Source: Bacteroidaceae bacterium (GTDB lineage Bacteria > Bacteroidota > Bacteroidia > Bacteroidales > Bacteroidaceae). From it: a DNA stretch of 64,000 nucleotides. Position 1 is the stretch's first letter, and the number at the start of each line of letters is the position of its first letter. Location of the stretch: contig JAGCDE010000030.1 in the NCBI GenBank assembly GCA_017651315.1, forward strand, positions 94,360 to 158,359, written 5' to 3'. Positions 23,107-27,664 of the stretch are shown piece by piece. The notes beneath the pieces are model-generated. The model searched no databases. It was not told the origin of the DNA and saw nothing but the letters and a program-made list of their open reading frames with translations. A program made the position numbers and the translations under genes.

Positions 23107-23838
23107 TTATCGTTTCTTGCATACTACCTGATTCTCATAAGCCACACTGACAGAGCTATATTTGTTCCACCCTATCCTGGACAGTCCTGTCTCATAGAAA
23201 GAGTATAGCCTTTCGAGTTTGGTATCCGCATTCTCAGCCGAACCGAGTATCAGAAGATGTCCGCCTACACGCGGGACCAGTTCTATCTGACGGTCCTTGT
23301 TCACATTAATCTGGACTACCTGCGCCCTCCAGAAATCGGAACGGTCAATAGCCAGAACCACCCTTCTCAGGTCATCGGCGGCAAACTTGCGGTCTATATA
23401 CCCTGTAGCCACCGGCAGATGAAGTGACAGCATCCTGTTAGTCAGGATATCACCTTTGCTATCCACATAGTAGTCCTCCCCACTGTTGCTGCGCACCCTG
23501 AGCAGAGGAGTCTTGCCATATACAATTATCTTCACCTTGCCGCCCGAAGTCTTGTAACATTGGGCAGACTCTATCAGCGGATAGTGTGAAAGCATCTCCT
23601 CCATGGCCTTTGTATCGACCGATGCCAACGCCACCCCTTCCGGATCCATGCCTTCAGAGTCGAGCAAGCCAAGGATCATTTCACTGTCAACCAGCGAAAT
23701 GTCCGAGCTGTCCTTCAAAACGATCTCAACCCCTTTGCACAGACGGGTATCCTCATGGCTTCCTGACATGAACATCATGGAGAAAACCAGATAACCTGTC
23801 AGTATCAGAACGGCTGTTATGGAGAGAATCTTCTTCAT
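23107..23838 (-). CDS. ftsQ: Cell division protein FtsQ
   Basis: A 243-residue bitopic membrane protein: a basic N-terminus and one transmembrane segment (ILSITAVLILTGYLVFSMMFM), then a periplasmic POTRA domain (about residues 35-110, with VEIVLKDSSDISLVDSEMI) and a beta domain. It connects early and late divisome proteins. The ATG at 23838 overlaps the preceding stop by one base (TGATG), a coupling arrangement, so I prefer it to the GTG at 23841. Confidence 0.88.
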   Translation of the reverse strand: MKKILSITAVLILTGYLVFSMMFMSGSHEDTRLCKGVEIVLKDSSDISLVDSEMILGLLDSEGMDPEGVALASVDTKAMEEMLSHYPLIESAQCYKTSGGKVKIIVYGKTPLLRVRSNSGEDYYVDSKGDILTNRMLSLHLPVATGYIDRKFAADDLRRVVLAIDRSDFWRAQVVQINVNKDRQIELVPRVGGHLLILGSAENADTKLERLYSFYETGLSRIGWNKYSSVSVAYENQVVCKKR

Positions 23839-26360
23839 CACTTTGTCTCGAGTATTGCGGTTATCCTGTCAGCATAATCCTCCAGGTCGCCCGCTCCGAC
23901 AGTCACAAGCACCTGGATATCGTCCTTCATGGAACGGACAAGTTCCTCCACACGGTCCTTGGCGACAATCCCCTTGCAGACTCCAGGTTTCATATTGTCG
24001 GCTATCAGGCTGCTTGATACGCCAGGCAAAGGTTCCTCGCGTGCGGGATATATTTCAGTGAGCCACACCTCATCGAAAAGCGACAGGCTCTCTGCAAACT
24101 CGTTGTAGAAATCCCTTGTCCTGGAGTAGAGATGCGGCTGGAATATTGCGGTAATCCGGCGGCCATCATACAGTTTCCGGAGTGAAAGCGCACACTGTCT
24201 GAGCTCTGCCGGATGATGCGCATAGTCTGTCAGGAAGACCTTTTCGCCCTTGAGCCTGAAGTCGAATCTGCGGTCACACCCCCTGAAACTCTTCATTGCC
24301 TCACGAATCACCTTGTCTTCGGCACCGCTCAGCTGGGCCAATGCAATCGCGGCCACAGCATTCTCCACATTCACGGGAACAGGCACTCCAAGCTCTATGT
24401 CCGATATACACCCTAACGGTGAAATAAGGTCGAATCTGAGCTCCCCATCCTTTATCTTAATACCGGAAGCATGGAAGTCGCCCTTCTCAACTCCGTATGT
24501 ATAGAGCGACACCCCATCCTGCAGGTCGGGCTTGAATGTCTCCTCAAGCGAGCTGTTCAACACCAATGCGCCACCCGGTTTTATCAGTGAGGTATATTTC
24601 CTGAAACTCTCCACATAATTCCCATAAGTACCGTAAATGTCCAGATGGTCTGCGTCAATGGCCGTAATCACACTCCTCAATGGCCTCAAATGGTGGAAAG
24701 AACGGTCATATTCATCGGCTTCTATGACCACATACCTGCTGGCGGGACTCGTCAGGAGGTTACTGTTGTAGTTCTTGAGGATACCGCCAAGAAAAGCATT
24801 GCAGCCATCTGGCATCCCATGCATAATATGTGCGGTCATGGCCGATGTCGTGGTCTTTCCGTGGGTTCCCGCCACACACAGTCCGTCTAAGCTGCGTGTC
24901 AGCGTCCCGAGGACCTGTGCACGTTTCTGCACGTCAAAACCGTTGCTCCGGAACCACCTGAGTTCCCTGTTGTCCGATGGTTTTATGGCCGGGGTATAGA
25001 CAACGAGTGTCTTTTCCCTCTCCTTGAATCCTTCAGGAATCAGATTCAGGTTATCCTCAAAATGAATCAAGGCCCCTTCGGTCATCAGTTCCGATGTCAG
25101 CTCCGTGGGAGTACGGTCATAGCCTGCTACCGCACATCCGCGCGAAAGGAAATAACGCTCAAGCGCACTCATCCCTATCCCTCCGGCACCTATGAAATAG
25201 ACAGACTTTATATCCTGCAGGTCCACCTTTCCGGTTTTGAAACCTGCCAGGTCAAGCACTTCACGGGCGATAGTCACTGCCGAATCGTCAATTCCAAGTT
25301 TGAGAATATTCTCCCTGAGCGACTTAAGCCTGTCCTTGTCCTTCACCAGATCCACGGCGGCAGGAATCAGTTCCTTTCCGGCATCTGCATCGGCTATATG
25401 GACTGCGGCATTCTTGTCGGCAAGTGCCATGGCGTTCCTGGTCTGATGGTCCTCAGCCACATTAGGTGAGGGCACCAGTATCACCGCCTTGCCCAACAGA
25501 CAGAGTTCAGAGATGGTTCCTGCACCGGCACGTGAAATCACCAGGTCTGCGGCAGCATACGCCACATCCATGTCCTGGACGAAATCCGTCGGAAACAGGT
25601 TGCGGACAGGAACCGTACCGGACAGCCGCTTCTTCATCTCGTCGAAATAGTACTTGCCTGTCTGCCAAACGAACTGGATATCATCTGACATGCGTATCAG
25701 TTCCAGATTGCCCATAACGCTCTCGTTCAAAGAGCGCGCTCCCAGACTTCCGCCGATAATAAGTATTATCCGCTTGGCGGGATCAAGTCCCATACTGCGT
25801 GCAGCCTGATCCCTGTCTGTCATGTTTTCCGTCAGGCTGGGACGCACGGGATTACCCGTCAGCAGAATCTTGTCCGCAGGAAAGAACCGCTCCATTCCAT
25901 CGTACGCCACACAAATCCTGCGTGCTTTCTTCGCCAGTATCTTGTTAGTTACACCGGCGTATGAGTTCTGTTCCTGGAGCAGGGTGGGCACCCCCATCCT
26001 TCCGGCCATCCTCAAGGTCGGTCCGCTTGCATATCCGCCCACGCCCACAGCAACCATAGGCTTGAACTCCCTTATAATCCTGCGGGCCATCCTCTGGCTG
26101 TGCATTATCTTGAAGAGCACCGATATATTCTTCAGAGGATTCTTCCTGTCAAAACCGCATATAGGCAGTCCTTTTATTTCAAACCCGGCAGCAGGAACAC
26201 GCTGCATCTCCATCCTGCCTTCCGCACCCACAAACAGGATTTCAGCTTCCGGACAGAGAGATTTCACAGCGAGGGCTATCGAAACAGCGGGAAAGATATG
26301 TCCCCCCGTTCCTCCTCCGCTGATAATTATACGCGGTCTCTTATCATTCTCCTTATCCAT
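23838..26360 (-). CDS. murG-murC: MurG-MurC fusion: lipid II synthase plus UDP-MurNAc--L-alanine ligase
   Basis: One continuous 840-residue reading frame. Residues 1-371 are a complete MurG (GGGTGGH at 15-21, GGSLGAR near 203, SRAGAGTISEL near 276), which adds GlcNAc to lipid I at the inner membrane face. Residues about 384-840 are a complete MurC (SVYFIGAGGIGMSAL near 387, ATP-binding GTHGKTTT at 498-505, EADEYDRSF near 547, TDYAHHP), which adds L-alanine to UDP-MurNAc in the cytosol. The roughly 12-residue linker (AGFKTGKVDLQD) has no stop codon, though GTG at residue 379 could start MurC separately. Bacteroidetes normally encode them as adjacent genes. The frame has a 1-base overlap with ftsQ. 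Confidence 0.9.
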   Translation of the reverse strand: MDKENDKRPRIIISGGGTGGHIFPAVSIALAVKSLCPEAEILFVGAEGRMEMQRVPAAGFEIKGLPICGFDRKNPLKNISVLFKIMHSQRMARRIIREFKPMVAVGVGGYASGPTLRMAGRMGVPTLLQEQNSYAGVTNKILAKKARRICVAYDGMERFFPADKILLTGNPVRPSLTENMTDRDQAARSMGLDPAKRIILIIGGSLGARSLNESVMGNLELIRMSDDIQFVWQTGKYYFDEMKKRLSGTVPVRNLFPTDFVQDMDVAYAAADLVISRAGAGTISELCLLGKAVILVPSPNVAEDHQTRNAMALADKNAAVHIADADAGKELIPAAVDLVKDKDRLKSLRENILKLGIDDSAVTIAREVLDLAGFKTGKVDLQDIKSVYFIGAGGIGMSALERYFLSRGCAVAGYDRTPTELTSELMTEGALIHFEDNLNLIPEGFKEREKTLVVYTPAIKPSDNRELRWFRSNGFDVQKRAQVLGTLTRSLDGLCVAGTHGKTTTSAMTAHIMHGMPDGCNAFLGGILKNYNSNLLTSPASRYVVIEADEYDRSFHHLRPLRSVITAIDADHLDIYGTYGNYVESFRKYTSLIKPGGALVLNSSLEETFKPDLQDGVSLYTYGVEKGDFHASGIKIKDGELRFDLISPLGCISDIELGVPVPVNVENAVAAIALAQLSGAEDKVIREAMKSFRGCDRRFDFRLKGEKVFLTDYAHHPAELRQCALSLRKLYDGRRITAIFQPHLYSRTRDFYNEFAESLSLFDEVWLTEIYPAREEPLPGVSSSLIADNMKPGVCKGIVAKDRVEELVRSMKDDIQVLVTVGAGDLEDYADRITAILETK

Positions 26361-26374
26361 TGTCTAATATAGGA

Positions 26375-27664
26375 TTAAATATCATCAACCATTTCATTCC
26401 CCGTATCTCCATCCACCTCTTCCATCCTGACAGGTTCATCGGCAGGCAGATGGTTCTCCTCCGCGGCCTCCCTGTCAAGCGTATTGCTTATGCCAATAAG
26501 CATCCCTATCGAGAAGCTTGCCATAAGTACCGATGTGCCGCCCTTACTGATAAGAGGCAACGGCTGTCCCGTTACCGGAAAAAGCCCTACAGCCACGGAC
26601 ATGTTTATGAAAGCCTGCAACCCCAGCATCATCCCGAGCCCCATGGCGAGGAATGCCGGATACTTGTCGGTACACCTCATGGCAATCTTCCCTATCCTGA
26701 ACAGCAGGACTATATAGACAATAAGGACAAATATGGCACCCACCATACCCAGTTCCTCTATAATGATGGCATATATGAAGTCACAGCTGGCCTCCTGAAG
26801 ATAATCGCGCTCATAGGAATTTCCAGGCCCCTTGCCAAGAAAATGGCTGGATGCTATCGCTATATTGGCATGGGTCTCCTGAGGCTTCTCAGGAGCTGTG
26901 TTCCTCGCATACTCGTAGGCCGTCTCCTTGGATTCAGAGCCTGAGTTAGTAAAATCCAGTATCCTCGCCTGCCAAGTCAGAGCTCTCTCGGGAATGAAAC
27001 GTGAATCACCCAGAGTCTTGGGCGGCACAAGTACCAGGAGCAGCACCGCAGTCAGGCCTATAGCAAACAGCACCCCGGTGAGCCCCAGCATCCTGCGCCA
27101 AGAGATTCCACCCAGAATCATCATTATATAGACCACAGCGCCAAGCAATATGGCTGTGGAAAGGTTCTCCGTGAATATAAGCATACAGAAAGCTCCTGTC
27201 ACCACAAGAATCTTCATGAAGACATTGGACTGGCTCTGCTCATCGTCTGGCTTGAGTTTGGCCAGCAAGGCTGCGACAGTCATCACGGCTGCCACCTTGC
27301 CGAGCTCCGAAGGCTGAAGCTTGAAGAAACCCAGGTCAATCCACCGTTCGGCTCCCGCCGACTGTTTGCTCAGGAATGAGAGGTAAGCCAGAAGAGCCAG
27401 AGAAACAGGCACCAGCAGAACCGGGAACAACTTATACCATCTGTAATGGAGAAGATGAAGCACATACATCACCACTATACCCATACCGAGATGTATCACA
27501 TGCGACAGTATGGGAGTAAGAAAACTGCTCTTACCGAACGTGAGGCGGCTGCTTGCGCTGAACACCTCCACAAGGGATATACTGCAGAGAAGAAGCACTG
27601 ATATCCATATATATATGTCACCCCTGAATAGAGGCCCCTTAATCTTGTCTTTTGCTGGTTCCAT
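26375..27664 (-). CDS. ftsW: Cell division protein FtsW (SEDS glycosyltransferase)
   Basis: A 429-residue polytopic membrane protein with about ten hydrophobic segments and typical SEDS signatures: GAERWIDLGFFKLQPSE near 105 and SHFLGKGPGNS, YLQEASCDFIYAIIIEELGM and the final ATGQPLPLISKGGTS near 365. It polymerises lipid II into septal glycan with the class B penicillin-binding protein encoded in the same cluster. It is 14 bases after murG-murC's upstream neighbour on the operon order (murD first, then ftsW) and precedes the fused gene by 14 bases. An extra acidic C-terminal tail follows the last membrane segment. Confidence 0.93.
   Translation of the reverse strand: MEPAKDKIKGPLFRGDIYIWISVLLLCSISLVEVFSASSRLTFGKSSFLTPILSHVIHLGMGIVVMYVLHLLHYRWYKLFPVLLVPVSLALLAYLSFLSKQSAGAERWIDLGFFKLQPSELGKVAAVMTVAALLAKLKPDDEQSQSNVFMKILVVTGAFCMLIFTENLSTAILLGAVVYIMMILGGISWRRMLGLTGVLFAIGLTAVLLLVLVPPKTLGDSRFIPERALTWQARILDFTNSGSESKETAYEYARNTAPEKPQETHANIAIASSHFLGKGPGNSYERDYLQEASCDFIYAIIIEELGMVGAIFVLIVYIVLLFRIGKIAMRCTDKYPAFLAMGLGMMLGLQAFINMSVAVGLFPVTGQPLPLISKGGTSVLMASFSIGMLIGISNTLDREAAEENHLPADEPVRMEEVDGDTGNEMVDDI

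Follow-up and report, generated by a model that had tools for sequence, protein, structure and literature searches.

We identified a gene that joins murG and murC in one uninterrupted frame within a 64,000-nucleotide stretch of a Bacteroidaceae genome (hereafter the window, meaning the whole stretch analysed). The gene is very probably a genuine, vertically inherited fusion, and its product is predicted from sequence to be a bifunctional MurG-MurC polypeptide that serves as the sole source of MurG and MurC in an incomplete genome. A junction found in 31 of the 37 genus genomes examined, together with a linker under purifying selection, establishes that the fusion is genuine and not an assembly error.

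The fusion gene and its two halves

In the list of open reading frames (ORFs), positions 23838-26360 of the minus strand form a single ATG-to-stop frame of 840 codons with zero internal stops. The predicted protein begins with a complete MurG, which is followed by a complete MurC. The gene, its parts and its immediate neighbours are arranged as follows.

23838..26360, minus strand: murG-murC fusion gene, 840 aa, ATG start, TGA stop
25263..26336, minus strand: MurG part (TIGR01133, residues 9-366), with two GT28 domains
25215..25247, minus strand: junction or linker, residues 372-382
25224..25226, minus strand: GTG codon at residue 379, the candidate internal MurC start of the initial annotation
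23868..25202, minus strand: MurC part (TIGR01082, residues 387-831), with three Mur-ligase domains
26375..27664, minus strand: upstream neighbour of the ftsW/rodA type; best NCBIfam match ftsW, below cut-off
23107..23841, minus strand: downstream neighbour, FtsQ-like to judge by its position, without an NCBIfam match

In the window, the FtsQ-like gene and the 3' end of the fusion gene share 4 bases.

The MurG half belongs to its family both by score and by architecture. It matches the NCBIfam model TIGR01133 (murG) over residues 9-366 with 271.8 bits, above the curated cut-off of 250.25, and spans nearly the whole profile (positions 6-351 of 353). The N- and C-terminal GT28 domains (Pfam accessions PF03033 and PF04101) exceed their gathering scores. 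The glycine-rich loops are likewise present, with GGGTGGH (residues 15-21), GVGGYASGP and GGSLGA aligned to the solved structures 3s2u, 7d1i and 1f0k.

The MurC half matches TIGR01082 (murC) over residues 387-831 and profile positions 2-446 of 449, with a score of 325.2 bits (327.5 in the genome search) that lies about 10 bits below the curated cut-off of 335.1. Among 14 control genomes, 13 match this model and 10 score above the cut-off. Because the window protein falls below it, we base the MurC identity on the best-scoring family, full profile coverage and the lack of a better candidate; the next-ranking NCBIfam models for Mur ligases are MurC-Ddl (202.7 bits), mpl (95.1 bits) and murD (82.2 bits). 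Three Pfam domains (PF01225, PF08245 and PF02875) score above their gathering thresholds, and the expected motif stretches align to solved MurC chains: GAGGIGMS (residues 391-398), GTHGKT (498-503), EADE (547-550), DHLDIYG (571-577), RRFD (697-700) and DYAHHP (712-717). We take the aligned stretches of both halves to be active-site motifs.

The initial annotation had described MurG and MurC in one frame, full motif sets in both halves and a linker of about 12 residues. The first of these is borne out by a frame of 840 aa that lacks an internal stop and matches both families at full length, and the second by the stretches aligned to solved MurG and MurC chains. The linker estimate lies inside the measured range, which runs from 8 residues, if clear homology is taken to end at 372 and resume at 381, to about 20 between the profile ends. 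Both complete enzymes thus occupy an uninterrupted frame, as a bifunctional fusion should, in the window and in 31 of the 37 genus genomes. No model for a MurG-MurC fusion is among the best 25 of the 30 NCBIfam matches of the window protein.

The genome from which the window derives (2.69 Mb in 59 contigs, 83% complete) contains one match to the murG profile, which is the fusion, and five to the murC profile, namely the fusion and four far weaker matches. The latter were rejected as a second MurC, since they correspond to MurD, MurE, MurF and MurF-Alr. A search for other copies, which the initial annotation had proposed, thus found none of MurC or MurG grade in this genome, where 83% completeness makes a missing second copy possible. 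We also observe a second cell-wall fusion on the same contig, a MurF-alanine racemase of 822 aa (L006:40-2508, minus strand; NF008897 at 1240.5 bits), and a separate MurF (L005:1204-2574, minus strand; TIGR01143 at 381.7 bits).

Distribution and origin within the genus

We asked how murG and murC are arranged across the genus, in a set of 37 genomes that includes the one holding the window; all 37 yielded matches. ORF checks identified the fusion in 31 (L007-L036 and L109), in which clear homology is broken by just 7-9 residues. In the other six (L110-L115), murG and murC are separate genes that abut or overlap, and the neighbours are unchanged. In these split genomes, no more than about 20 bases lie between the murG stop and the murC start, which may fall on either side of it, and murC is read in a different frame from murG (offset 2 in four genomes, offset 1 in two). 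In the translation of one split locus (L112), a Met lies one codon inside the homology.

The gene order mraY-murD-ftsW-[murG/murC]-ftsQ-ftsA-ftsZ is found in all 37 genomes, fused or split, with ftsZ beyond the contig end in one (L139), for which it is absent from the flank tree described below. The genes murD, murE and ftsW were named by NCBIfam match; the neighbours that we take to be mraY, ftsQ, ftsA and ftsZ were named by position. In every one of the 37, ftsW and ftsQ each have a frame of their own. Apparent FtsW-MurG-MurC triple fusions at L012 (1336 aa) and L018 (1334 aa) were excluded, these lengths having been counted from the locus end. Flags of a 'TAA inside' in G026 and G028 were similarly rejected as signs of split genes, as ORF checks revealed no stop separating murG from murC there.

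The initial annotation had held that the same fusion should be sought in related genomes and that separate genes with identical flanks in close relatives would speak against it. Relatives of both kinds exist, 31 of the 37 with the fusion and six with separate genes and identical flanks. Since 31 genomes have the fusion, the six split relatives do not refute it.

Analyses of the linker provide a second line of evidence. None of the 31 fused frames contains a stop. Across 192 pairs of fused genes with more than 85% protein identity, which overlap and are not independent, third codon positions account for 64% of the changes in the linker and 77% of those in the cores of the two domains, and the non-synonymous share of changed codons is 34% in the linker and 20-22% in the cores. 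To judge from these codon patterns, the linker is coding sequence that is relaxed yet under purifying selection.

These observations bear on two alternative readings of the gene. A missed indel or stop near 25.2 kb could have merged two separate genes into an artefactual one, and both the state of the assembly (59 contigs, 83% complete) and the six genus members with separate genes and identical neighbours would be compatible with such an error. Nevertheless, 31 of 37 genus genomes have the same uninterrupted junction, among them named records from different series of isolate names (RGIG8382, UBA1192, UBA2559, RUG11955 and RUG10916), and the linker is under selection at the codon level. An artefact of assembly or base calling is therefore vanishingly improbable, and the junction common to 31 of 37 genomes rules it out for practical purposes. 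A second reading accepts the fusion and proposes that the gene also yields a stand-alone MurC, through internal initiation at GTG 379 or through proteolysis of the linker. It draws on the presence of that GTG in the window gene and on the linker being more variable than the domains. However, the GTG is common to only 3 of the 31; residues 370-392 hold no ATG, GTG or TTG in 12 of them and an ATG in only 3; and the next ATG, at residue 397, falls inside the GAGGIGMS motif in the four genes looked at. The 12 genes without a start codon in this interval led us to reject GTG 379 as a conserved internal MurC start, so the stand-alone MurC entertained by the initial annotation does not hold as a conserved feature. 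This start-codon evidence bears on conservation and is compatible with proteolysis or with use of the GTG in the window species alone; taken together, a stand-alone product seems quite improbable.

Whether the fusion arose once or twice was addressed with two data sets, whose best trees disagree: one places the fused genomes behind a single branch and the other requires two changes. The flank tree was built from six flanking proteins (37 rows, 2442 columns) of genus members only and rooted on G021/G023. In it, a branch with support of 99/96 separates all 31 fused genomes from the split ones and recurs in 98% of 200 bootstrap trees. The tree of murG and murC themselves (47 rows, linker left out, 200 bootstrap trees) separates the 31 into two groups, with the split genomes G011, G014, G015 and G016 between them; the 2 changes needed are forced by its starred branches, and one fused clade appears in 0% of its bootstrap trees. 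This topology, along with linkers in G008 and G013 that are unlike those of the other 29, fits a history in which the fusion arose twice (in the G008/G013 pair and in a clade of 29 species), or in which a single fusion was later split in G014 and in G011/G015/G016. Against such a history stand the position of all 31 fused genomes in the flank tree and an AU test on murG+murC, which does not reject a single fused clade (p 0.293). The flank tree has about three times as many columns and leaves out the fused gene itself, and for these reasons we favour a single fusion event with no later splitting, two changes of state being the main alternative but appearing unlikely. The fusion would then date back to a single event at the root of a clade of 31 species within the genus, and would never have re-split there. 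Its origin may lie in a small indel or stop loss at a tight gene junction. In the flank tree, G014 (L143), which has split genes, sits on a very long end branch of 0.67 changes per column.

Occurrence outside the genus

Samples at three taxonomic levels support the statement in the initial annotation that separate genes are the usual state, among the matches listed. The family sample comprised 251 genomes, with no match in three (G063, G069 and G189); the genus contributed 16, of which 13 are fused. Stop-free matches spanning both halves are confined to the genus among the matches listed, and all 30 ORF-checked loci from other genera of the family are split (L092-L108 and L116-L128). In the order sample (393 genomes, 207 genera), stop-free spans occur in at least six genomes, namely the window, G462, G466, G321, G356 and G457, each confirmed by ORF check. 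Among the 29 order loci L166-L194, 27 are split and the other two are G462 and G466; G361, which shares a genus code with G462, is split as well (L198). At L200, checked alongside these loci, one or both halves went unmatched; L199, only 10 bases long, was excluded. The phylum sample comprised 198 genomes, one without a match (G736). At least one of the 198, the window itself, is fused, as are none of the other 197 among the matches listed, and all 18 ORF-checked phylum loci are split (L203-L220).

Twelve candidate further fusions with a long open frame, from the family sample (G242, G158, G159, G198 and G100) and the phylum sample (G812, G730, G832, G796, G837, G809 and G693), all turned out to be split on ORF check. 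Open-frame length is thus not proof of fusion.

Named records contributed 55 loci, 52 of which could be assessed (L065, L079 and L091 were excluded), and seven of the 52 are fused. L037, L038, L039, L041 and L090 lie on the same contigs as G010, G005, G028, G004 and G027, respectively, and so are not independent of the genus count; two of the seven fused loci are from another lineage (L042 and L046). The L042 fusion protein (Alphaproteobacteria bacterium INTA.CYC.164) is 96.9% identical to that of L046 (Bacteroidales STF2_223), and the Alphaproteobacteria label is probably wrong.

Such a fusion is accordingly found in up to five further lineages, which are Bacteroidales where placed: G462; G466; G321; G356 with G457; and L042 with L046. 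These were grouped without a tree, and G462, G466 and G321 rest on one assembly each. Fusions with long linkers may show as two matches, and counts outside the genus are lower bounds. Both sampled genomes of genus f86 g115 (G356 at L196 and G457 at L197) carry fusions that are 57.6% identical and have unlike linkers; this genus is possibly a second case of a genus-wide fusion.

Related fusions and possible function

A comparison with published systems revealed that fusion of MurG and MurC is already in print, so the fusion is less novel than the initial annotation implied. The Figure 3 legend of a 2016 review mentions a murG/murC fusion in C. gilvus (PMC4929429), and passages of another paper place MurG and MurC among fused pairs while observing that their steps are not consecutive (PMC6420597). 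As far as that figure legend and a text description allow comparison, C. gilvus resembles the window in having a murG/murC fusion within its dcw cluster, and differs in being an actinomycete, from another phylum (PMC4929429). We found no paper on a MurG-MurC fusion in Bacteroidales among the matches listed from the open-access literature. An excerpt on Frankia describes murG-murC as an operon, not a fusion (PMC7231273).

Other fusions share parts of this architecture. MurE-MurF of Bordetella pertussis likewise combines two Mur enzymes in one polypeptide, but it joins consecutive ligation steps, and MurG is there a separate interaction partner, according to passages of PMC6420597. MurB-MurC of Verrucomicrobium spinosum has MurC as one half, as in the window, and MurB as its partner in the account given in part of PMC4803751. 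MurC-Ddl (NCBIfam NF011171) again pairs a MurC half with another partner, Ddl, and like MurG-MurC is presented in PMC6420597 passages as joining non-consecutive steps; the window protein matches NF011171 with its MurC half only, at 202.7 bits against a cut-off of 1015. The MurF-alanine racemase of the same genome similarly joins a peptidoglycan ligase to another cell-wall enzyme, and has its own curated NCBIfam model, NF008897. Passages in two of these papers treat Mur enzyme fusions as indirect support for a Mur complex in the cytoplasm (PMC6420597, PMC4929429). Because this type of fusion has already been mentioned in print, the sequence finding is modest.

MurG lies at the inner face of the membrane and its product is lipid II, while MurD, MurE, MurF and MraY act between the MurC and MurG steps. 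Each half of the fusion would perform its standard reaction, MurC adding L-Ala to UDP-MurNAc and MurG adding GlcNAc to lipid I. A fixed 1:1 ratio of MurG to MurC and recruitment of MurC to a membrane-associated MurG assembly are likely consequences. Membrane tethering of MurC is plausible, and we infer its membrane placement and coupling to MurG from the fusion; direct channelling is not expected, as the two steps are not consecutive.

Linkage might have been selected for its function, with MurC tethered to membrane-bound MurG so as to channel precursor or tune lipid II flux. Retention in 31 species without reversal in the flank tree would be consistent with such selection, as would the presence of the fusion in up to five other lineages and the proposal, in parts of PMC6420597, that MurG is an oligomeric scaffold for Mur enzymes. 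The non-consecutive steps argue against it, however, and with murG and murC side by side in a compact cluster, a small mutation suffices for fusion and neutral retention is possible. Fusion in at least 6 of 393 genomes of the order, and in none of 197 of the phylum besides the window among the matches listed, likewise indicates no broad trend. We thus consider functional selection possible but doubtful, and the fusion could be near-neutral.

Still more speculatively, and on balance improbably, MurC, which opens the stem-peptide pathway, may be permanently tethered to MurG in a Bacteroidales clade, so that the first ligation would take place at the MurG/MraY site with fixed stoichiometry. If this were true, the repeated fusions would reflect selection for a membrane-bound Mur assembly. 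The genus-level MurG-MurC fusion is real and probably of single origin, and it is useful mainly for comparing fused and split sister species. With identical neighbours in both, the genus offers a natural comparison for flux, localisation and inhibitor sensitivity.
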